Assembly: GCA_028280815.1 (NCBI GenBank)
Contig: JANQLC010000030.1
Span: 1 to 64,000, forward strand
Length of the DNA stretch: 64,000 nt
Origin: Flavobacteriales bacterium
GTDB lineage: Bacteria > Bacteroidota > Bacteroidia > Flavobacteriales > JANQLC01
Direction of reading: 5' to 3'
Positions 17,071 through 62,371 of the stretch are shown here, in pieces (positions within the stretch are counted from its first letter, which is position 1; each line of letters starts with the position of its first letter). The notes below the pieces were generated by a model. That model saw only the letters and a list, made by a program, of their open reading frames with translations, was not told the DNA's origin and made no database searches. The position numbers and the translations under genes are program-made.

Positions 17071-17116
17071 GCTGTGACTAACCGGTAAATACAAGGTTTC
17101 GATAGCCGTTCACAAC
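17071..17116 (-). repeat. Solitary CRISPR-repeat-like sequence
   Basis: Read on the minus strand these 46 bases start GTTGTGAACGGCTA and end TTAGTCACAGC, aligning without gaps over the full length of the CRISPR repeat at 59.5-60.6 kb with 32 of 46 identical bases by hand count. It sits in the 490-bp space between sdhB and the protease gene, oriented like both, 42 kb from the array. The -7 box is not preserved (TGTATTTA). The rest of this intergenic space shows nothing I recognise. Confidence 0.7.
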
Positions 17117-21194: not shown

Positions 21195-23957
21195 ATGCAA
21201 GCTTCGGTGAAACCCTTGTTTGTAAAAGACAATGGGGCAACGCGTGCTATCAAATATCGAAGCGATAGCGCAATCTTTGCCCATGCGCAAAAGTACACTG
21301 CATTGAAAGGTGCGCTCTGCTTAATAACGGTATTATTTTCATTAAATGCATTTGCACAAGATTACTACATTACTACTTCCGACCTCAATCTAAGAGCAGG
21401 AGCAGGAGTAAATTACAAATCTTCGACTGTTATTTCAAAAGGTGACACAGTGAGATCACTTGAAGGCACCAGTGGCTATTGGGTGAGAATTCAGCACCAT
21501 GGAAACGTAGGGTACTCAGCAAAACAATACCTACAAAAGATACAAATCGATAAAGCCGGACAAGAAAGAGAAATCGAGGAAGAATCGGAAAGCGGTTCTT
21601 TTTCGCTATTTTTAATCGGGGCAGCGATTTTTGTCATAGGTGTCTTAATCCAAGTAGGTAGAAATTACAAGCGCATTAAAAGACAAAAGAGAAAGAGGGT
21701 CAAACAACCCATATATCAGAGAGAGAAATGGCAGGCGATAAAAAATTATGCCCGAGCTGGAAGTCAAATCCACTTAATCGTAGAAAGGAAAAATTTCGAC
21801 CGCATCCAAAACCAGCTGAGCATGGCGGGTTGCCATAACATCACTCCGATAAGTGACAAGAGAATCAACCAGGATATCCCTTATTTGGATTCTTGGATTA
21901 AAAGCGAATACAATACCGAGTGGGAAACATACCTCGTCCCCTACCTGTACAATCTCGATTACTACTTGAAACTAATCCGCTTAAGAGGAAAGGTCAAAGT
22001 GCTTTGTTACAGTCAGATAGAATCTCACGAGCATGTGACACACGACAATCATAAAAATACCAGTTCAGACGAAACCCTTATCGATGTGAATTCGGAAAAG
22101 CTCGACTTAACCATAAAACCTTCAATCCAAAATGATGAAACACAGTTAGAGCCTCCGCCTCGCGAGCATGTGACACACGACAATCATAAAAATACCAGTT
22201 CAGACGAAACCCTTATCGATGTGGATTCGGAAAAGCTCGACTTAACCATAAAACCTTTAATCCAAAATGATGAAACACAGTTAGAGCCTCCGTATTGGAG
22301 CCACACTTATGTTCACTCATACGATGAGATAAATCGTGCTTCAAAAGCACAAAAGGAATTCTATTTTCACCTTAGAGAAAACGTTCTCAATGGTGAATTC
22401 GTAGATATTAGAGGCAATACAAACTATGCATTCATCCTGTACTTCGATTTATTAAATCAGTATGAAACCCATCAGGATATCGAGTTACTTGAAGAACAAT
22501 TTAAACTTTTGGGGCAGGTTTGCCCTAAAACAAAAAGCTATTCTTCGATGTCCTTGCAGGGCTTATTACGAAAGAGAACGGATTCACATTCGATAGATAA
22601 ATTAAACGCCCTACAAAAGCCGAGCTATCAACTTGAGCACGGACACTCAGATTACGACCCAGATGCTTACAAATTAGGAAAACATTACAAAGATAAGCTG
22701 GGATTAAGCAAACAAGAGGCTGCATGGCTAAATAAGTTTTGGAATCATTCAAATATTTTCACATCTATTGAAGGGTGTTGTATTGCCACCATAAAACAGT
22801 ACATACTGATATTGAAAAGATTAAATAAAGAGCTCGAGCTTCAAAACACATCAATTGCCAAAGAAGTGGATTATTTTAAAGAAAAAATATTTGAAGTAAA
22901 AGAATTTGCAGACCCATATTACGGTAAATCATATATGAAGCGACGAGTTGAATCCGAAATATACTTAACCATCTTTAAACGAGTAGAAAACGCTGTAAGG
23001 GAATTCTATGGACACAAACGCAAAGTAGGACGTAATCCACACTATGAATTTGATGGCCAGTTTGAGGGTCGCATTGGAAATCGTGTTGACGAGTTAATAA
23101 CCCAATATCAAGGAGAGATTCTACCACCAGACATCGAAACACAAATAGAACTAAACGCAGAAAATGTCAATCGTTGGAAGATTGAATTTACAGCGCTAAA
23201 AAATCAATTTCAAAAAGAGGAAAAAAGTAAGTTCATCGATGGGATTAGAAATATAGAAAAAACGAACCAAAAGAATCGCAATATTGAAAATATCTTTATC
23301 GAAGCTTCAAAACTCATTGCAAAGTATGACAGAGTTCAATCTTTAAAATACTATGCGCAATACATATATTACGATCTAAAATCGAATAAGTTTGACAACA
23401 AGCCATTGACCCAAGCCGTACAAAAATCCTTGTTTAAAACGCAAGGACAAATCGATGATTTCAAAAGGATTATCGCTGAATTAATCCAAACATCAGATAT
23501 CGATAAAGCCTTGCATGAAATTGCCCGGATTTATATGCCGAAGAGAAAGAAAATTGTACTCGACAAGTCGGCGATAAAAGAAGCTGAGCAAAAGTACGAT
23601 GACACAGTTGAATTGTTAAACGAATACCTCGATGTTGAATCAGAGAAAACGAACATCGGAAATTTAGAAAATGAAGAAGTTGAAGTTGTACCCATGGCAA
23701 ATAACTCTATTTTAATTTCTGAGATTAGACTTGGAAAACCGCAAGAAGAATTAATAAAGAAGATTACAACCCACTCATTTGAAATCCTTCAGGGTGAAGT
23801 AGATCGATTCGCTATTGAAAATAGAATGTTTAAGAACCAACTGATCGATAGTATAAATGAAGCTTGTGAGGCGTTTCTGGATGGCGAAGCGTTAATTGAG
23901 GAAGACGGTGAAAATTATGTAATCGAAGAATCTTATTATAAAGCAATAGCAGTGTAA
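21195..23957 (+). CDS. SH3-TM-TerB_N/TerB_C protein of a putative defence island
   Basis: First gene of a three-gene AT-rich cassette. Order of parts: signal peptide or N-terminal helix (ALCLITVLFSLNAFA), bacterial SH3 domain at about 55-115 (LNLRAGAGVNYKSSTVISKG), one membrane helix at about 135-155 (LFLIGAAIFVIGVLIQVG), a linker with a perfect-length 45-residue tandem duplication, a TerB_N-like domain (about 360-560, FYFHLRENVLNGEFVDI) and a C-terminal TerB_C-like domain ending DGEALIEEDGENYVIEE. TerB-type domains occur in tellurite-resistance and phage-defence gene neighbourhoods. The start could instead be TTG 21303, directly before the signal peptide. GC is far below the flanking genes, indicating transfer. 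Confidence 0.8.
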   Translation: MQASVKPLFVKDNGATRAIKYRSDSAIFAHAQKYTALKGALCLITVLFSLNAFAQDYYITTSDLNLRAGAGVNYKSSTVISKGDTVRSLEGTSGYWVRIQHHGNVGYSAKQYLQKIQIDKAGQEREIEEESESGSFSLFLIGAAIFVIGVLIQVGRNYKRIKRQKRKRVKQPIYQREKWQAIKNYARAGSQIHLIVERKNFDRIQNQLSMAGCHNITPISDKRINQDIPYLDSWIKSEYNTEWETYLVPYLYNLDYYLKLIRLRGKVKVLCYSQIESHEHVTHDNHKNTSSDETLIDVNSEKLDLTIKPSIQNDETQLEPPPREHVTHDNHKNTSSDETLIDVDSEKLDLTIKPLIQNDETQLEPPYWSHTYVHSYDEINRASKAQKEFYFHLRENVLNGEFVDIRGNTNYAFILYFDLLNQYETHQDIELLEEQFKLLGQVCPKTKSYSSMSLQGLLRKRTDSHSIDKLNALQKPSYQLEHGHSDYDPDAYKLGKHYKDKLGLSKQEAAWLNKFWNHSNIFTSIEGCCIATIKQYILILKRLNKELELQNTSIAKEVDYFKEKIFEVKEFADPYYGKSYMKRRVESEIYLTIFKRVENAVREFYGHKRKVGRNPHYEFDGQFEGRIGNRVDELITQYQGEILPPDIETQIELNAENVNRWKIEFTALKNQFQKEEKSKFIDGIRNIEKTNQKNRNIENIFIEASKLIAKYDRVQSLKYYAQYIYYDLKSNKFDNKPLTQAVQKSLFKTQGQIDDFKRIIAELIQTSDIDKALHEIARIYMPKRKKIVLDKSAIKEAEQKYDDTVELLNEYLDVESEKTNIGNLENEEVEVVPMANNSILISEIRLGKPQEELIKKITTHSFEILQGEVDRFAIENRMFKNQLIDSINEACEAFLDGEALIEEDGENYVIEESYYKAIAV
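22028..22297 (+). repeat. Tandem 135-bp duplication inside the TerB-domain gene
   Basis: Two head-to-tail copies, 22028-22162 and 22163-22297, with only a few differences. Each encodes a 45-residue acidic unit beginning REHVTHDNHKNTSSDE and ending DETQLEPP. The high identity suggests a recent duplication; the unit lies in the linker between the membrane helix and the TerB domains. Confidence 0.9.
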
Positions 23958-23960
23958 GTT

Positions 23961-25274
23961 ATGGCAGTGAGAATAAAAGCAAAAGAAGCAACGGCAATTA
24001 TTAATTCCCTTTCGGGTGGCGTAGTGCCAAGGATTGGTGTGCAGCATATCGCTGTCGGTAGAAAGCTGGAAATCGAAGCATTCACATCAGCGCTCGACGA
24101 TGTTAAAAGCGGGCATAGTATGGTTAAGTTTTGGATTGGAGATTTTGGTTCAGGGAAATCGTTTATGCTTCATCTGCTAAATTGCATTGCTACAAAACAA
24201 AAATTTGTCGTTGCAAATGCTGATTTCACACCGGATAACAGGCTTTATTCGAATGATGGGAAAGCAGTTGCATTGTACAGCGCTATAATGGATCATGTCG
24301 CCATTCCAATCAAACCAGAAGGAGGCGCATTACCTACTTTACTCGACAAATGGATTGAACGAGCAGTTTCTAAAACAGCACAGCGGAACAACATCTCGAT
24401 TACTGAAATCAGGGAAGAGAGATACTTGAATCTCATTCGGGAAAATATCATGCAAACCGTAAGAGAATTTACAGAGACTGGCGGACTTGATTTTGGAGTA
24501 GTCGTGATTAAGTATTATGAAGGTTATATCAAGGATGATGCGTATTTAAGACGAAGTGCTCTAAAATGGTTAAAAGGGGAATACAGGACAAAAACAGAAG
24601 CGAGACAAGATTTAGGGGTGCGAGAAATAGTGAATGATTGGAACTATTACGATATGCTCAAAAATTTTTGCAGGTTGTTTGTCAGTATGGGATATAGTGG
24701 CTTTATGATCAATCTCGATGAAGCGATTAACCTTTATAAAATATCGACAGCCAATATGAGGGCGAAAAACTACGAAAAGATTTTAACCCTATTCAATGAT
24801 TGCTTTCAAGGTAAGGTTCCAAACTTGTTTCTAAACTTTGCCGGCACAAAGGAATTTTTAAAAAATGAAAGAAGGGGCCTATTCAGTTACGACGCCCTTA
24901 AAACCCGCTTAGAAACAAATAAATTTGAAACCGCTCAATACCGTGATTTGGCACAGCCGGTAATTGAGTTGGTTCCCTTAAATCACAATGAGATATTTGT
25001 TTTATTAAATAAACTAAAAAATATTTTTGATACAAATTTCAATGTAGATATCCATATCACTGATGTAGACATTCGGATGTTTATGGAAGCCATGTTTAAC
25101 AAACCAGGCGCAGATGAGTTTTTGACCCCGAGGGAGGTTATTCGTGAGTTCTTAGGTATCCTTAGCATACTGAGACAACATCCGGAAGCCGATAAGTCAA
25201 CACTGATCTCGGACATTGAAATATCGGATGAACGACCAGCGGAAACCGATCTCGATTCCATCGAAGAATTCTAA
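23961..25274 (+). CDS. BrxD-like P-loop ATPase (DUF2791 family)
   Basis: 437 residues with Walker A GDFGSGKSFML at about residue 57 and Walker B GFMINLDEA at about 250, and the general sequence plan of the BREX ATP-binding protein BrxD. Starts three bases after the upstream stop and ends one base into the helicase start codon, so the three genes form one translational unit. BrxD is known from type 2 BREX loci together with the helicase BrxHII; here no pglX, pglZ or brxC is present, so this is not a BREX locus but a compact relative. Its partner role is inferred. Confidence 0.85.
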   Translation: MAVRIKAKEATAIINSLSGGVVPRIGVQHIAVGRKLEIEAFTSALDDVKSGHSMVKFWIGDFGSGKSFMLHLLNCIATKQKFVVANADFTPDNRLYSNDGKAVALYSAIMDHVAIPIKPEGGALPTLLDKWIERAVSKTAQRNNISITEIREERYLNLIRENIMQTVREFTETGGLDFGVVVIKYYEGYIKDDAYLRRSALKWLKGEYRTKTEARQDLGVREIVNDWNYYDMLKNFCRLFVSMGYSGFMINLDEAINLYKISTANMRAKNYEKILTLFNDCFQGKVPNLFLNFAGTKEFLKNERRGLFSYDALKTRLETNKFETAQYRDLAQPVIELVPLNHNEIFVLLNKLKNIFDTNFNVDIHITDVDIRMFMEAMFNKPGADEFLTPREVIREFLGILSILRQHPEADKSTLISDIEISDERPAETDLDSIEEF

Positions 25275-27436
25275 TGTCGTATAAACTCCTATCGGAACCC
25301 ATAAGGAAATACATCCGCGATAAGCATTGGAAATCCTTACGCCGGATTCAGGCTGCAGCAATAGAAAAAATAATTACCACTGACAACAATTATATACTCG
25401 CATCCCGAACCGCATCAGGAAAAACAGAAGCCGCATTTTTGCCCATTCTTTCAAAAGCAGATTTTAATCAAGCAGGTGTTCAAGTTCTCTATATTTCCCC
25501 ATTAATCGCACTGATAAACGATCAGTTTTTTAGAATAGCGGATTTGTGTAAAGACCTCGAAATAAAGATCACTAAATGGCATGGAGAAGCAAAAAAATCA
25601 TTAAAAATAAGACTTATAAAAAATCCCAACGGCATGGTTCTGATTACTCCTGAATCATTGGAAGCCATGTTTGTAAATGCGCCTTATAATGTTTCTACCC
25701 TTTTTGGAAACCTCAAGTATATCGTGATTGACGAATTACACTCGTTTTTGGGTACAGACAGAGGTTTGCAATTGATGTCTTTGTTGTCGCGGATTCAGCA
25801 GGTAAATAAATCACAAATTACCACCATTGGATTGTCAGCGACGATTGGGGATGAGAATTATATGGAAGCGAAGAGATTAACTGGAAATATTTCAAAAACA
25901 AAAGTTTTACTTGACAGGGCAAAAAAAGAGACAGAAGCCCAATTCAAATACTTCAAAAATGTTACCGCTGAATTGCCTCTCAATTTACTCAAAGATCTGT
26001 ACAGGGAGACGCGTTTAAACAAAACCCTCATCTTTCCAAATAGCCGGGGAAGAGCTGAAGAAATAGCTGTAAAACTTCGTAAAATATCGGATAAAGCAAA
26101 CGGACATAAGTATTATTACTCGCATCATTCTTCAGTAGATAAAGAGATTAGGGAGCATATAGAACACTTTGTCAAAAGCGACGAGCGATTCAATTTTTGT
26201 ATTTCGTGTACTTCTACTCTGGAACTCGGTATAGACATTGGTATGGTAGATAAAATCGTTCAGATAGATTCTACACGTTCCGTTTCTTCATTTGTCCAAA
26301 GAATTGGTCGCAGCGGTAGAAGGGAAGGAGAAAAAAGCGTTGTAACCATTTATGCAACCGATAAATGGAGTTTGCTACAATCCTTAGCGTGCTGGGTTTT
26401 GTACAAAAAGGGATTTGTCGAGTCAATCAAAACAGCGGAAAAGCATTATGACATTTTATTACACCAGCTTTTATCAATAGTAAAACAGCTTTCCGGCTGC
26501 TTCAAGGCTGATTTAATTAAAAGATTAAAAATGAATTTTGCTTTTCAAACCATTGAAGAACAGGAGCTGAGTACAATAATTGACGAAGCGATTCAATCGG
26601 ATTATTTAGAAATTGTTCAACGTGAAGTAATCTTGGGTATCGAAGGAGAAAACATCGTTAACTCAAGGGAGTTTTACAGTGTATTTAAGCCTGAGTCAAA
26701 CTTTAAAGTGATCTTCTCAGGGAAAAAAATCGGAGATATCCCTTTATCTACACAGGTGAAAATTGATGAAAATATTTTCCTCGCAGCAAAAATATGGAAG
26801 ATTAAAGACATCCATGCAAAAGGCAGAAAGATCAGCGTAATTCCGGCAAAGGACGGTAAAAAGCCAAGATTTTATGGCGAGGGTGGAAATATCCATCCGA
26901 GAATACGGGAAGAGATGCTTCGGATATTGAAAAGCGACGAGTCCTTTTCAGAACTCGATAGCAATACCAATTCTGCCTTGGAAGAGCTGAGGTTTGATTT
27001 CAAAGGATTTCAAATTGATGATTTTGAGTATGACAAACCCACTATAAACAAAGGCGATAAGATACTCATTTATACATTTACCGGGACTAGAGTAAACGAG
27101 AGTTTACGCTTTTTAATTAATCTAACCGGACACAAGGAGGCTTCGCTGCATGATCGTGGGAATTCTTTGGAGCTGTATATCAATATTTCTGATTTCAAGG
27201 AATTGGTAGAAAAAGTAAACAAAGCGTATGATGAAATCGATGATCATTTGAAATTAGCGGTCGAAGAAAACGAATCATTGTGGAGATTACATTTGCCCAA
27301 GTGGGGATCGTATTTGTCAACGAGATATAAATGTGAAATTTTAAAAGAGAGATATTTTGATTTTGAAACAGCCATTGACCTGATCAACAACATCAAATTA
27401 GTTGAGCGTGAAAAAATCAACCATTTATCTGATTAA
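25274..27436 (+). CDS. DEAD/DEAH-box superfamily II helicase
   Basis: 720 residues. Helicase motifs in order: Q-like region (RIQAAAIEKI), motif I SRTASGKTEAAFLP, motif Ia/Ib (YISPLIALINDQ, LITPESLE), motif II DELHSF, motif III GLSATIGD, motif IV region (TLIFPNSRGRAEEIA), motif V (STLELGIDIG) and motif VI QRIGRSGRR. The C-terminal 300 residues have no motif I can name. The closest named group is the Lhr/BrxHII-like helicases. It follows the BrxD-like ATPase with a one-base overlap; the two probably act together on DNA. Confidence 0.88.
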   Translation: MSYKLLSEPIRKYIRDKHWKSLRRIQAAAIEKIITTDNNYILASRTASGKTEAAFLPILSKADFNQAGVQVLYISPLIALINDQFFRIADLCKDLEIKITKWHGEAKKSLKIRLIKNPNGMVLITPESLEAMFVNAPYNVSTLFGNLKYIVIDELHSFLGTDRGLQLMSLLSRIQQVNKSQITTIGLSATIGDENYMEAKRLTGNISKTKVLLDRAKKETEAQFKYFKNVTAELPLNLLKDLYRETRLNKTLIFPNSRGRAEEIAVKLRKISDKANGHKYYYSHHSSVDKEIREHIEHFVKSDERFNFCISCTSTLELGIDIGMVDKIVQIDSTRSVSSFVQRIGRSGRREGEKSVVTIYATDKWSLLQSLACWVLYKKGFVESIKTAEKHYDILLHQLLSIVKQLSGCFKADLIKRLKMNFAFQTIEEQELSTIIDEAIQSDYLEIVQREVILGIEGENIVNSREFYSVFKPESNFKVIFSGKKIGDIPLSTQVKIDENIFLAAKIWKIKDIHAKGRKISVIPAKDGKKPRFYGEGGNIHPRIREEMLRILKSDESFSELDSNTNSALEELRFDFKGFQIDDFEYDKPTINKGDKILIYTFTGTRVNESLRFLINLTGHKEASLHDRGNSLELYINISDFKELVEKVNKAYDEIDDHLKLAVEENESLWRLHLPKWGSYLSTRYKCEILKERYFDFETAIDLINNIKLVEREKINHLSD

Positions 27437-27437
27437 A

Positions 27438-27620
27438 ATGGGAGCTGTGTTTTTCATCACCACTGGTCAGCTGCTATCGGCCCAAAACCAGGCCGAGGTG
27501 ATAAGGGGAAGGGTTACGGATGAGAAACACAAACCGCTTGCATTTGCAGATATTGTGATCACAAATACGTTGGGGGCACTGGTCACAGGTAAAGAAATCA
27601 ATCACATTGACAAGTGGTAG
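27438..27620 (+). pseudogene. N-terminal fragment of a carboxypeptidase-regulatory-like/TonB receptor gene
   Basis: Begins with a signal peptide (MGAVFFITTGQLLSAQ) and the opening strand of a CarboxypepD_reg-like domain (VIRGRVTDEKHKPLAFADIVI), the usual N-terminus of SusC-type receptors, then stops after about 60 residues (KEINHIDKW). The start lies next to the helicase stop. This is a truncated remnant marking the right edge of the defence island; the rest of the receptor is absent. Confidence 0.6.
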
Positions 27621-27750
27621 CTTGCTCGTCATGTCAGGCACCACCCAGCGACACTAGAAGCACCGACTGCCCGAGCAAAAAAGCTGTCGAGGCGCGCGTA
27701 TCAACCTGAGTTTCCGCCAGATCAAGGCGCTTCAATAGGTTGGCTTTAAG

Positions 27751-28152
27751 ATGAAAACAACGTTTGAAACAAAGCGCGTTTTATCCACTTTCAACACGCA
27801 TGCTGACGGATGGGATCAAAAGAGCGCTTATATTGCCGAAAAAGTAGGAGAGAGCCGCAGGCTTTTCCGATTGCTAGACAGACTGGTGAAAGATCGGGAT
27901 CGCATTTTGGATATGGGTTGCGGCACGGGAAAGCTGGGTACTCATCTGAAACAAATCGCAGCCAATACGAGATTGGTATCCGCTGACACATTTCGATTGG
28001 GATGCTCAGAAGGGCACAGCAGAAGGGGCATGCTCAGAAAGCTATTCAAATTGGAAGCTATAGTGCTTTGTTGCAATGCGATGCAAATGGACGGGAACCG
28101 TTGTGAATGGCTACCGGAATCTTATATTTGCTTAACAGTCATAGTTGATTGA
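27751..28152 (+). pseudogene. Truncated SAM-dependent methyltransferase
   Basis: The first 75 or so residues are a normal class I methyltransferase start (FNTHADGWDQKSAYIAEKVG, then the SAM-binding motif I ILDMGCGTGKLG). After NTRLVSAD the frame no longer resembles the family, and the last residues are encoded by a CRISPR-repeat-like sequence at 28100. The C-terminal two thirds of the enzyme are missing. Probably a dead 5' fragment. Confidence 0.6.
28100..28145 (+). repeat. CRISPR-repeat-like sequence upstream of hydrolase gene
   Basis: 46 bases aligning without gaps to the array repeat with 39 identical by hand count; starts GTTGTGAATGGCTACCGG and ends AACAGTCATAGT. The embedded promoter is kept: TTG near the left end and TATATTTG at 28123-28130 with 19 bp between. 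The next gene starts 94 bp downstream in the same direction. Confidence 0.9.
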
Positions 28153-47323: not shown

Positions 47324-48175
47324 ATGAAAAACCAGCTTGTACTCGCAATGGTGATGGGCTTAAAGCTAACCACTTATGCCCAATCTCTAAGGGTGAACAT
47401 CAAAGATGTCGAGGCTGAGGTCTCCGGCCGAATAGGCGTGTCAATATCCGATACGCAGCGCGTAATATGGAATTATCGAGGAGATGAGCGCTTTCCGATG
47501 ATGAGTACGTCCAAAACGCTAGTCTGTGCCAAGTTGCTCTCTGATTTCGACCATGGCCGACTAAGCGAGCGAGATAGCAGCAAAATAGAAAGACAAAATT
47601 TGATTATCTGGTCCCCGGTTACAAAAAAATATATCGGGCAGTTCATTTCACCTAAACAAGCCTGTGAGGCGGCTATGTTGAGCAGCGACAACACGGCTGC
47701 CAATCTGGTTTTAGAAAAAGCCGGCGGGCCAAGAGCCGCGACCCATTTTTTGCGCACTTTCGGCGATCATACCACTCGGTTGGATCGTTACGAGCCCGAC
47801 CTCAACGCTTGTAAAACGGGTGATCTGCGTGATACCACTACGCCTAACGCTATGGTTACGACACTGCGTAAACTGTTATTCGGAGAAGTATTGACGTCAA
47901 GGTCTAAAGATCAGCTCAAACAGTGGATGATACATGATAAAGTTGCTGATTCGCTATTGCGTTCGGTTTTACCTTCCGGCTGGTTGATAGCCGATCGTTC
48001 TGGCGCCGGTTCCGGTTCCAGAGGTATTACCGCTATCATTTGGTCTGAAAGACGTCAGCCATTGATAATTGCCATCTACTTGGCTGAAACAGAACGCGCT
48101 ATTGATGAACAAGACAAAATTATCGCTAGAATCGGTGAAGCGATTTTTGATTCCCATAACGTAGTGCCGTTTTGA
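47324..48175 (+). CDS. Class A beta-lactamase
   Basis: Periplasmic serine beta-lactamase of 283 residues with a signal peptide ending TYAQ. Active-site elements in order: Ser-x-x-Lys at 61-64 (STSK), SDN at 121-123, the omega-loop Glu in RYEPDLN (Glu157), and RSG in DRSGAGSGSRG at the usual KTG position, as seen in carbenicillinase-like class A enzymes. All catalytic residues are present, so it looks functional. No mobile-element genes flank it within the window. Confidence 0.9.
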   Translation: MKNQLVLAMVMGLKLTTYAQSLRVNIKDVEAEVSGRIGVSISDTQRVIWNYRGDERFPMMSTSKTLVCAKLLSDFDHGRLSERDSSKIERQNLIIWSPVTKKYIGQFISPKQACEAAMLSSDNTAANLVLEKAGGPRAATHFLRTFGDHTTRLDRYEPDLNACKTGDLRDTTTPNAMVTTLRKLLFGEVLTSRSKDQLKQWMIHDKVADSLLRSVLPSGWLIADRSGAGSGSRGITAIIWSERRQPLIIAIYLAETERAIDEQDKIIARIGEAIFDSHNVVPF

Positions 48176-58457: not shown

Positions 58458-58503
58458 GTTGTAATTGGCCAACGAAATCTGATTTTTGATGAGCAGTCAC
58501 AGG
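58458..58503 (+). repeat. Degenerate CRISPR repeat, first of a two-repeat mini-array
   Basis: 46 bases, about 34 identical to the array repeat; ends GAGCAGTCACAGG. Followed by a 30-bp spacer (58504-58533), exactly the spacer length of the main array. Confidence 0.85.
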
Positions 58504-58533
58504 TTTACCCCCTTCTTTAGTGAACTTAGCTGT

Positions 58534-58579
58534 GTTGTGAATTGCTACTGGAATCTTACATTTGCCTAGCAGTTACAGG
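58534..58579 (+). repeat. Near-perfect CRISPR repeat, second of a two-repeat mini-array
   Basis: 46 bases, 43 identical to the array repeat, with the TTG/19 bp/TACATTTG promoter intact. The next 200 bp hold a short coding-like fragment (CYEATDGFKKLKKASEY) and then the ORF6N gene. Confidence 0.93.
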
Positions 58580-58784: not shown

Positions 58785-59318
58785 ATGAACAAATCGCAGC
58801 TGATACAATCCAAGATATATAATGTAAACGGGCATAAGGTGTTGTTAGACTTTGATTTATCGGCATTGTACGAGGTGGAGAATCGAATTTTAAAACAAGC
58901 GGTAAGACGAAACCTTAAGCGTTTTCCGCCTGATTTTATGTTTCAACTCTCTAAGGATGAGTGGAAGGAGCTTATCACAAATTGTGACAACCTTCCCGAT
59001 AAAGTCAAATACAGTCCCGTTGCGCCGTTTGCCTTTACAGAGCAAGGCGTAGCAATGCTATCTTCTGTGCTCAACAGCGACAAAGCAATCGAGGTCAATA
59101 TAGTCATTATGAGAGCTTTTGTAACGCTTCGCCGACACCTTACGGACTATGCTGGTCTCAAAGAGCGTGTAGCGCGGCTGGAAAAAGAAATGAACCTGAA
59201 GTTTAAAGGTCTATACCAAGCGTTAAACCACTTGCTTAAAAAAGAGAAAACAATTGTGGATCGACAAAAAAGAGCAAGAATAGGTTATAAAACCGGTAAT
59301 AAGAGAAAACAAGTCTAG
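58785..59318 (+). CDS. ORF6N-domain protein
   Basis: 177 residues. The ORF6N domain, often found in phage and mobile-element DNA-binding or antirepressor-type proteins, is clear: VLLDFDLSALYEVENRILKQ (cut to LDFDLSALYEVENR), RNLKRFPPDFMFQLS and the end FAFTEQGVAMLSSVLNSDKA. A coiled-coil region (LKERVARLEKEM) and a basic tail follow. Lies between two CRISPR-like repeats, 36 bp before the second. Confidence 0.9.
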   Translation: MNKSQLIQSKIYNVNGHKVLLDFDLSALYEVENRILKQAVRRNLKRFPPDFMFQLSKDEWKELITNCDNLPDKVKYSPVAPFAFTEQGVAMLSSVLNSDKAIEVNIVIMRAFVTLRRHLTDYAGLKERVARLEKEMNLKFKGLYQALNHLLKKEKTIVDRQKRARIGYKTGNKRKQV

Positions 59319-59478: not shown

Positions 59479-60586
59479 GTTGTGAATTGCTACCGGAATC
59501 TTACATTTGTCTAGCGGTCACAGGCTAGCGGTGGTAAGCTTGTAGAAGGATGCGGTTGTGAATTGCTACCGGAATCTTACATTTGTCTAGCAGTCACAGG
59601 CAACTGGCCGAGGACAATTACGAAAAAGCAGTTGTGAATTGCTACCGGAATCTTACATTTGTCTAGCAGTCACAGGCGCCATCCTCATCCCATCCGTATG
59701 GCCACTGTTGTGAATTGCTACCGGAATCTTACATTTGTCTAGCAGTCACAGGCTGCGACGAGCAGATACTTATTTCTGTTGTGTTGTGAATTGCTACCGG
59801 AATCTTACATTTGTCTAGCAGTCACAGGCATCACTACACAGCGGAAGAAGAAGCGGCGGGTTGTGAATTGCTAACGGAATCTTACATTTGTCTAGCAGTC
59901 ACAGGACTACTGGGCTAACTGGTGCCGGGTATATCGTTGTGAATTGCTAACGGAATCTTACATTTGTCTAGCAGTCACAGGTAAGCCCTAGGCAGAATGT
60001 TTAACTCGGGGGTTGTGAATTGCTACCGGAATCTTACATTTGTCTAGCAGTCACAGGCTTTGTAAAAATCTTTTTTGAATAAATCTAGTTGTGAATTGCT
60101 ACCGGAATCTTACATTTGTCTAGCAGTCACAGGGCTACAATAAATAATTGGGAGTCTCTTCAGTTGTGAATTGCTACCGGAATCTTACATTTGTCTAGCA
60201 GTCACAGGTAAGAAAAGATTTGCAGTATGTTAGTGGTGTTGTGAATTGCTACCGGAATCTTACATTTGTCTAGCAGTCACAGGACAAGCAATAAAAGAAG
60301 GTGAGTCCAAAAGTTGTGAATTGCTACCGGAATCTTACATTTGTCTAGCAGTCACAGGATGAAGCAGAAGCGCCTTGCTCTAGTCTCTGTTGTGAATTGC
60401 TACCGGAATCTTACATTTGTCTAGCAGTCACAGGTACCTCTTGGTGCTCATCTGTGCCGCATTTGTTGTGAATTGCTACCGGAATCTTACATTTGTCTAG
60501 CAGTCACAGGGTGTACAAGGGATGAGAAAACAAGCCCCCGGTTGTGAATTGCTACCGGAATCTTACATTTGTCTAGCAGTCACAGG
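59479..60586 (+). CRISPR. Type II-C CRISPR array, 15 repeats, 14 spacers
   Basis: Repeats of 46 bp (start GTTGTGAATTGCTACCGG, end TCTAGCAGTCACAGG) at 59479, 59555, 59631, 59707, 59783, 59860, 59936, 60012, 60088, 60163, 60238, 60313, 60389, 60465 and 60541; spacers 29-31 bp. Repeat 1 has CGGTCA instead of CAGTCA near its end, and repeats 6 and 7 have CTAACGG; the others appear identical. The ends form an imperfect dyad (TGTGA..TGCTA with TAGCA..TCACA). Each repeat holds TTG at 2-4 and TACATTTG at 24-31, a Bacteroidota promoter pointing into the next spacer. By analogy with other II-C repeats starting GTTGT, crRNAs are read on the plus strand, towards cas2. Confidence 0.98.
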
Positions 60587-60655: not shown

Positions 60656-61888
<1,233 letters not shown>

Positions 61889-61892
<4 letters not shown>

Positions 61893-62371
61893 GAGAACAC
61901 TTTAAAACCATTCCGATACAGATCGTTGGCATCATCTGCTCTCCCTTCATCTTTAATCATTTCGATAAGCCTATTGGAAGGAATGACCCCGGGCGCAAAA
62001 ACTGCGATCGCCAAAGCATTAAAGCAGGCTGCCGTTGGATCAATTTGGGAGACAAAGGCTTTTAAATCGACACCTGAGTCTAACAAGTTAGACAAGACAA
62101 CATTTTCATAGGCGGGTAAATAACCCAGCTTCTCACCCTGAAAGTAAACGGCCACTGCGAAGGCATCGTATTTATTTTGCTTCTCCCTGACCAACTGTAA
62201 AACCGCTCCCGTGCTAATATGGCTTTTCAATCTGTCAAATCGATAATACCTCAACCCCGCAACGTAGTTATCATAGATTTTAATCAGCCGATCCGCCAGC
62301 AGTGAGTTGACCGGCAGCCTGAAGCCGCCGATACTTATGCTGAGTGCTTGGATAAAATCTTTGCGTTTCAC
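61889..62371 (-). CDS. HIRAN-domain protein inside the cas operon
   Basis: 160 residues. N-terminal GGFRLPVNSLLADRLIKIYD is followed by a HIRAN domain at about 35-105 (GLRYYRFDRLKSHISTGAVL with LVREKQNKYDAFAVAVYFQG and EKLGYLPAYENVVLSNLLDS as the landmark pieces). HIRAN domains bind 3' ends of single-stranded DNA in HLTF-type fork-remodelling proteins and occur alone in bacteria. The gene abuts the cas9 stop with no gap and overlaps cas1 by four bases, so it is a true operon member. An adaptation or end-processing role is inference. Confidence 0.85.

Follow-up and report, generated by a model that had tools for sequence, protein, structure and literature searches.

At positions 21195-27436, the window (the whole 64-kb stretch of DNA analysed, from an uncultured draft genome that is 92% complete) carries three genes that almost certainly constitute a Shango defence system, sngABC. 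The wider reading, in which the cassette is complete and horizontally acquired, SngA is an inner-membrane protein and the system works by the mechanism proposed below, is probable. The three ORFs are intact and lie on the same strand with near-touching ends, sngA and sngB being separated by 3 nt and sngB and sngC overlapping by 1 nt. The coordinates given for three coupled genes in the first-pass annotation proved exact. The cassette is also AT-richer than both flanks, as had been noted: GC is 0.37-0.39 and GC3 0.37-0.38 in sngABC, versus a GC3 of about 0.6 in the flanking core genes, left and right. The described location between sdhC and gene debris was likewise borne out, with sdhC, sdhA and sdhB to the left and fragments to the right (Table 1). 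The start of sngA is ambiguous between ATG 21195 and TTG 21303, the latter lying directly 5' of the signal peptide.

Table 1 Features of the sngABC locus and its downstream flank (window coordinates).
Feature	Position	Strand	Description and basis
sngA	21195..23957	+	920-aa SngA; ORF, Pfam, PADLOC, AlphaFold model
SH3_3 domain of SngA	21378..21536	+	aa 62-114, predicted periplasmic; Pfam 1.5e-9, pLDDT ~90
TM helix of SngA	21600..21662	+	about aa 136-156; hydropathy, charge, AlphaFold model
Tandem duplication in SngA linker	22024..22292	+	135 bp, in frame; 129/135 identical, frame compared
sngB	23961..25274	+	437-aa P-loop ATPase, BrxC/BrxD family
sngC	25274..27436	+	720-aa superfamily 2 helicase
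Downstream debris, outside Shango	27437..28152	+	Receptor-like short fragment, truncated methyltransferase ORF, lone CRISPR repeat
Truncated methyltransferase ORF	27751-28152	+	Part of downstream debris

All three products found their best PADLOC matches in Shango models (SngA, 7.8e-40 over aa 359-918; SngB, 1.6e-158; SngC, 1.1e-206), which upholds the earlier suggestion of a compact three-gene defence cassette. As in published Shango (Millman et al. 2022; Johnson et al. 2023, PMC10250203), a TerB-type SngA, the SngB ATPase and the DEAD/DEAH helicase SngC follow one another in the order A-B-C on one strand. Shango protects P. aeruginosa PAO1 from several phage families (PMC10250203), and phage protection in E. 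coli has been described in a report cited in that paper. The cassette is this already described system (PMC10250203), which the first-pass annotation did not name, and not a new derivative of BREX.

Scores against the BREX models of PADLOC were weaker. Gene 2 matched BrxD at 7.8e-45 and gene 3 matched BrxHI at 5.9e-130, with SngB leading BrxD by 374 bits and SngC leading BrxHI by 254 bits, and the NCBIfam model BREX_BrxD gave 156 bits on gene 2 against a cut-off of 350. Pfam assigned gene 2 to the BrxC/BrxD family (4.7e-139) and recognised DEAD and Helicase_C domains in gene 3. The BREX link drawn from the sequence is correct at the superfamily level: the kinship of the ATPase and helicase with BrxD and BrxH stands, although the best matches are SngB and SngC. 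SngC has been grouped with the BrxHI, DruE and DpdJ helicases (PMC12278908), and BrxD has been proposed as a loader of BrxHI, to which it is closely paired in BREX of type 2 (PMC12839542).

Given this relationship, the cassette might be what remains of a type 2 BREX locus, in degenerate or minimal form, that kept BrxD and BrxHI, lost PglX, PglZ, PglW and BrxC, and was joined by an unrelated TerB gene. The tight BrxD-BrxHI pairing, the Pfam family of gene 2 and the BrxHI match of gene 3 would fit such an origin. We nevertheless consider it very improbable in view of the lead of the Shango models, the subthreshold NCBIfam score and the finding that about 100 loci carry the identical trio as one block. 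In addition, the host genome (draft, 92% complete) yielded no match to PglZ and no second BrxC/D-family ATPase, SngB being its sole match, and neither PglX nor PglW turned up in the window among the genes that were annotated or scanned with HMMs. BREX membership was rejected on the HMM scores and on a genome without PglZ and without BrxC; the ATPase-helicase pair may still share ancestry with its BREX counterpart. Type 2 BREX and the cassette have in common a homologous, adjacent ATPase and helicase that probably act together (PMC12839542), and differ in that BrxC, PglX, PglZ and PglW are missing from the latter. The proposal that the cassette lacks the methylase and phosphatase of BREX was confirmed, for PglX in the window and for PglZ in the genome.

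Each of 28 genomes of Bacteroidota relatives (G443-G470) contained a single ORF with a PglZ domain (about 515-552 aa), and the genome of the window contained none. These ORFs are presumably PorX, a response regulator of Bacteroidota that includes a PglZ domain, and PF08665 is therefore unusable as a BREX marker in this phylum.

The first-pass annotation had also assigned TerB domains to gene 1. TerB_C was indeed recognised by Pfam (3.9e-12), together with SH3_3, whereas TerB (PF05099) and TerB_N (PF13208) gave no match in SngA of the window. Among 66 SngA relatives, TerB and TerB_N were each recognised in only 12, and by count in none of the Bacteroidota type, while TerB_C was found in 66/66. 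Given that the PADLOC SngA model likewise matches 66/66 relatives, we did not take TerB and TerB_N as defining Shango. TerB domains owe their name to tellurite resistance, which could point to a housekeeping or tellurite/stress-response operon. Three matches to defence models of a tested system, a patchy distribution (SngB in 21/396 genomes of the phylum), foreign base composition and neighbouring defence genes all argue against such an operon, which we regard as a scarcely credible explanation.

The three-gene order is conserved in other genomes. A scan with SngB returned 80 named loci at 72-85% identity, mostly from Bacteroidota with some Ignavibacteria MAGs, and further loci were drawn from whole genomes and plasmids. 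Over the 104 loci counted, A, B and C were adjacent in 100, with overlaps typically of 4-8 nt for most A/B junctions and 1-4 nt for B/C. Two of the four exceptions (L029 and L075) are contig ends; L111 is a plasmid copy in which SngB is interrupted and sngA is not adjacent, and L130 encodes a distant BrxC-like protein of 964 aa. The families listed in the flanks of 25 loci included Wadjet, Gabija, Hachiman, CBASS, RM, SoFic and reverse-transcriptase systems. No BREX core genes were seen among the 25 of 187 flanking families listed for these loci, at variance with the idea that such trios always sit within complete BREX loci. A relative of sngA was present in 441/5426 complete E. coli genomes and one of sngB on 692 plasmids; SngB relatives were not found in phage records.

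SngB of the window, which shares about 36-41% identity with the proteobacterial type, contains an intact Walker A motif (GDFGSGKS, aa 60) and the sequence INLDE at aa 250. SngC carries intact helicase motifs, SGKT (aa 48), DELH (aa 153), SAT (188) and QRIGRSGR (342), as well as a weak Lhr-type winged-helix match. Walker A was retained in 103/104 SngB and DExH in 101/103 SngC sequences. A nuclease domain was not recognised in SngA, SngB or SngC, and a sequence search of SngB against solved structures returned no match.

SngA of the window consists of a signal peptide with the cleavage motif AFA|QDYY, the SH3_3 domain, a TM helix, a linker predicted to be disordered (aa 210-360, about 150 residues), a helical core (aa 366-780) and TerB_C (aa 781-918). 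The AlphaFold model showed the SH3 domain and TM helix with confidence and a disordered linker. Net charge is -5 before the helix and +10, strongly basic, after it, and from the positive-inside rule we infer that the SH3 domain is periplasmic and the TerB part cytoplasmic. SngA is very likely membrane-anchored, and the membrane-tethered SH3-TM-TerB protein predicted by the first-pass annotation is consistent with the SH3_3 domain, TM helix and TerB_C identified here. Published Shango differs in this respect from the system of the window, whose SngA is a 920-aa protein with a signal peptide, SH3_3 and a TM helix in which Pfam detects neither TerB nor TerB_N.

When the full SngA model was compared with known folds, the SH3 domain alone was matched; the best hits were bacterial SH3 domains, among them some from cell-wall enzymes of the endolysin and NlpC types. 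A bacterial SH3 domain does not necessarily bind peptidoglycan. The core alone gave nothing significant in the fold search, with loose resemblance to TPR/PCI-like solenoids at E >= 0.3. The last 70 residues were modelled as helix-strand-helix-helix-strand-strand, which by our own reading of the secondary structure would be the order of a winged helix. Matches to Lipocalin_9 and to the enterotoxin EntFM were below cut-off and were rejected, the latter being due only to the common SH3 domain.

The duplication in the linker (Table 1) doubles the sequence DETLIDV, an instance of the motif (D/E)xxxIDV that is conserved in Bacteroidota SngA. In most of these proteins the motif, usually DDSIIDV, abuts the conserved core, even at the start of the protein, and its position is independent of whatever N-terminal part precedes it. 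The IDV motif is a possible docking site.

The N-terminal part of SngA varies among relatives. In the set of 66, Pfam recognised SH3_3 in 11, TM2 in 8 and DUF805 in 1. Among 77 dereplicated SngA proteins, 58 possess an N-terminal membrane module and 19 do not; classified by a plain hydropathy threshold, which was relaxed to 1.6 in a few cases, they comprise 43 with a single helix, 11 with SH3 plus helix, 3 with TM2 without SH3, 1 with DUF805 and the 19 with none. At a strict cut-off (KD >= 1.9), an N-terminal hydrophobic segment was found in 52/76 SngA, 0/76 SngB and 0/75 SngC. Chromosomal SngA of E. coli likewise has an N-terminal hydrophobic helix, and most SH3-type SngA show a positive-inside charge pattern at the helix. 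The anchor-free proteins are mostly from Chryseobacterium, with some from Flavobacterium. Some relatives are longer (996-1325 aa: L110, L027, L067, L119 and L122), with DUF805 in L110, long insertions before the core in L027 and L067 and repeat-like stretches in L119; these extensions are possible further sensor modules.

On a tree of SngB plus SngC (52 rows), which is a quick one with several forks open, the distribution of the four classes requires 15 changes (minimum, 3) and that of the SH3 form 4, and the starred branches alone force at least 3 SH3 changes. A single clade of SH3 rows was rejected on this tree (p-AU 2.6e-10). Across the 77 relatives, repeated swaps appear to have affected the membrane part of SngA, the remainder staying constant, and the scatter of SH3 may have arisen by recombination inside sngA instead of by de novo acquisition. 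Shango itself is already known. In the open literature, which does not extend to Millman et al. 2022 and other subscription papers, we found no paper pairing Shango with a transmembrane SngA, and as far as that literature shows, the anatomy of SngA and its exchangeable modules are new.

We tentatively propose a mechanism of sensing followed by loading, the prospects of which we put a little below even. A signal peptide that is then cleaved off would direct the SH3b domain into the periplasm, a single helix would span the inner membrane, and the flexible linker would carry the cytoplasmic helical/TerB_C core. The complex that the three proteins would form could be held at the envelope by SngA, which would report a disturbance such as phage entry or peptidoglycan damage; alternatively, SngA may merely position the complex where phage DNA enters. 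In the order of events that we envisage, SngB, an ORC/Cdc6-like ATPase, would then load or activate the SngC helicase, which would track along incoming DNA and dismantle or stall it. What finally stops the phage might be unwinding, stalling or exposure of the DNA to host nucleases.

In its more general form, which we offer with somewhat greater reserve, Shango would be an envelope-sensing defence in which SngA is a modular receptor: swappable heads (SH3b, TM2, DUF805 or a bare helix) would be combined with a constant core and the SngB-SngC pair, and SH3b would read peptidoglycan at phage entry. The N-terminus of SngA could instead be a mere anchor that raises local concentration at the inner membrane face, its modules being interchangeable, non-sensing tethers. 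In the commonest class (43/77) the module is just a helix, without any outer part, and the tree's count of at least 15 module changes around an unchanging core is also what such a tether would predict, whereas SH3 and TM2 have been repeatedly gained or kept where a bare helix would suffice, and some SngA proteins have no anchor at all. Given that 19/77 SngA proteins are anchor-free, SngB/SngC chemistry cannot depend on an anchor in all systems. Because these anchor-free systems show that the DNA machine is usable without an anchor, a plain tether is nearly as likely as sensing, and we regard it as a serious possibility.

Cell killing by membrane proteins is common among defence systems, and SngA, being membrane-anchored in most systems, might be a toxic abortive-infection effector, with SngB and SngC on phage DNA triggering envelope damage and cell death. 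A single tether helix with a soluble core, and its absence from the anchor-free proteins, are unlike a pore former, and we consider this role improbable.

The sensing arrangement would resemble Zorya by analogy only. In Zorya, a membrane complex that binds peptidoglycan through its periplasmic part is coupled to proteins that act on DNA in the cytoplasm (PMC11890865); an envelope part plus DNA-acting proteins is what Shango would share with ZorAB and ZorCD/ZorE, whereas it appears to lack the MotAB-like motor and no nuclease was recognised in it. The PADLOC Zorya models gave no match to the three proteins. Hachiman (HamAB) also uses a superfamily 2 helicase as its DNA-acting subunit (PMC12278908), but pairs it with a nuclease, and SngC falls in another helicase group, with BrxHI, DruE and DpdJ. 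If envelope sensing is correct, Shango would stand beside Zorya among envelope defences, and the presence of a TerB protein in a DNA helicase system would be explained; if the membrane part is a plain tether, the finding would be of modest interest. Shango is common, and a mostly membrane-bound TerB subunit with exchangeable modules offers a testable handle in terms of localisation and phage specificity.

The same contig contains a type II CRISPR-Cas locus, at 59479-60586 and 60996-62371 and, in contig coordinates (G000:C15), at 62933-66652 (minus strand) and 74464-74811. An array of 15 repeats of about 46 nt is accompanied by another, shorter array (5 repeats, at 74.5 kb), by Cas1 (PADLOC Cas1_II, 1.8e-105) with an adjoining HIRAN-domain gene, and by an intact Cas9-family ORF of 1437 aa that spans the window end. 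Solitary degenerate copies of this CRISPR repeat were found at 28100-28144 (plus strand) and 17072-17116 (minus strand), with 6 and 13 mismatches of 45, respectively; shuffled repeats searched against the same 104 kb never did better than 16 mismatches. These two repeats are in opposite orientation, flank the sdh-Shango block and lie far from the arrays. Two more off-array repeats (12 and 3 mismatches) at 58458-58578, about 1 kb before the array, could be an array remnant or a tracrRNA anti-repeat. Just upstream of the array, 58785-59318 (plus strand) encodes an ORF6N-domain protein that matches the PADLOC candidate family PDC-S05 (3.7e-52), and a class A beta-lactamase-like protein (Beta-lactamase2, 3.6e-35) is encoded at 47324-48175 (plus strand).
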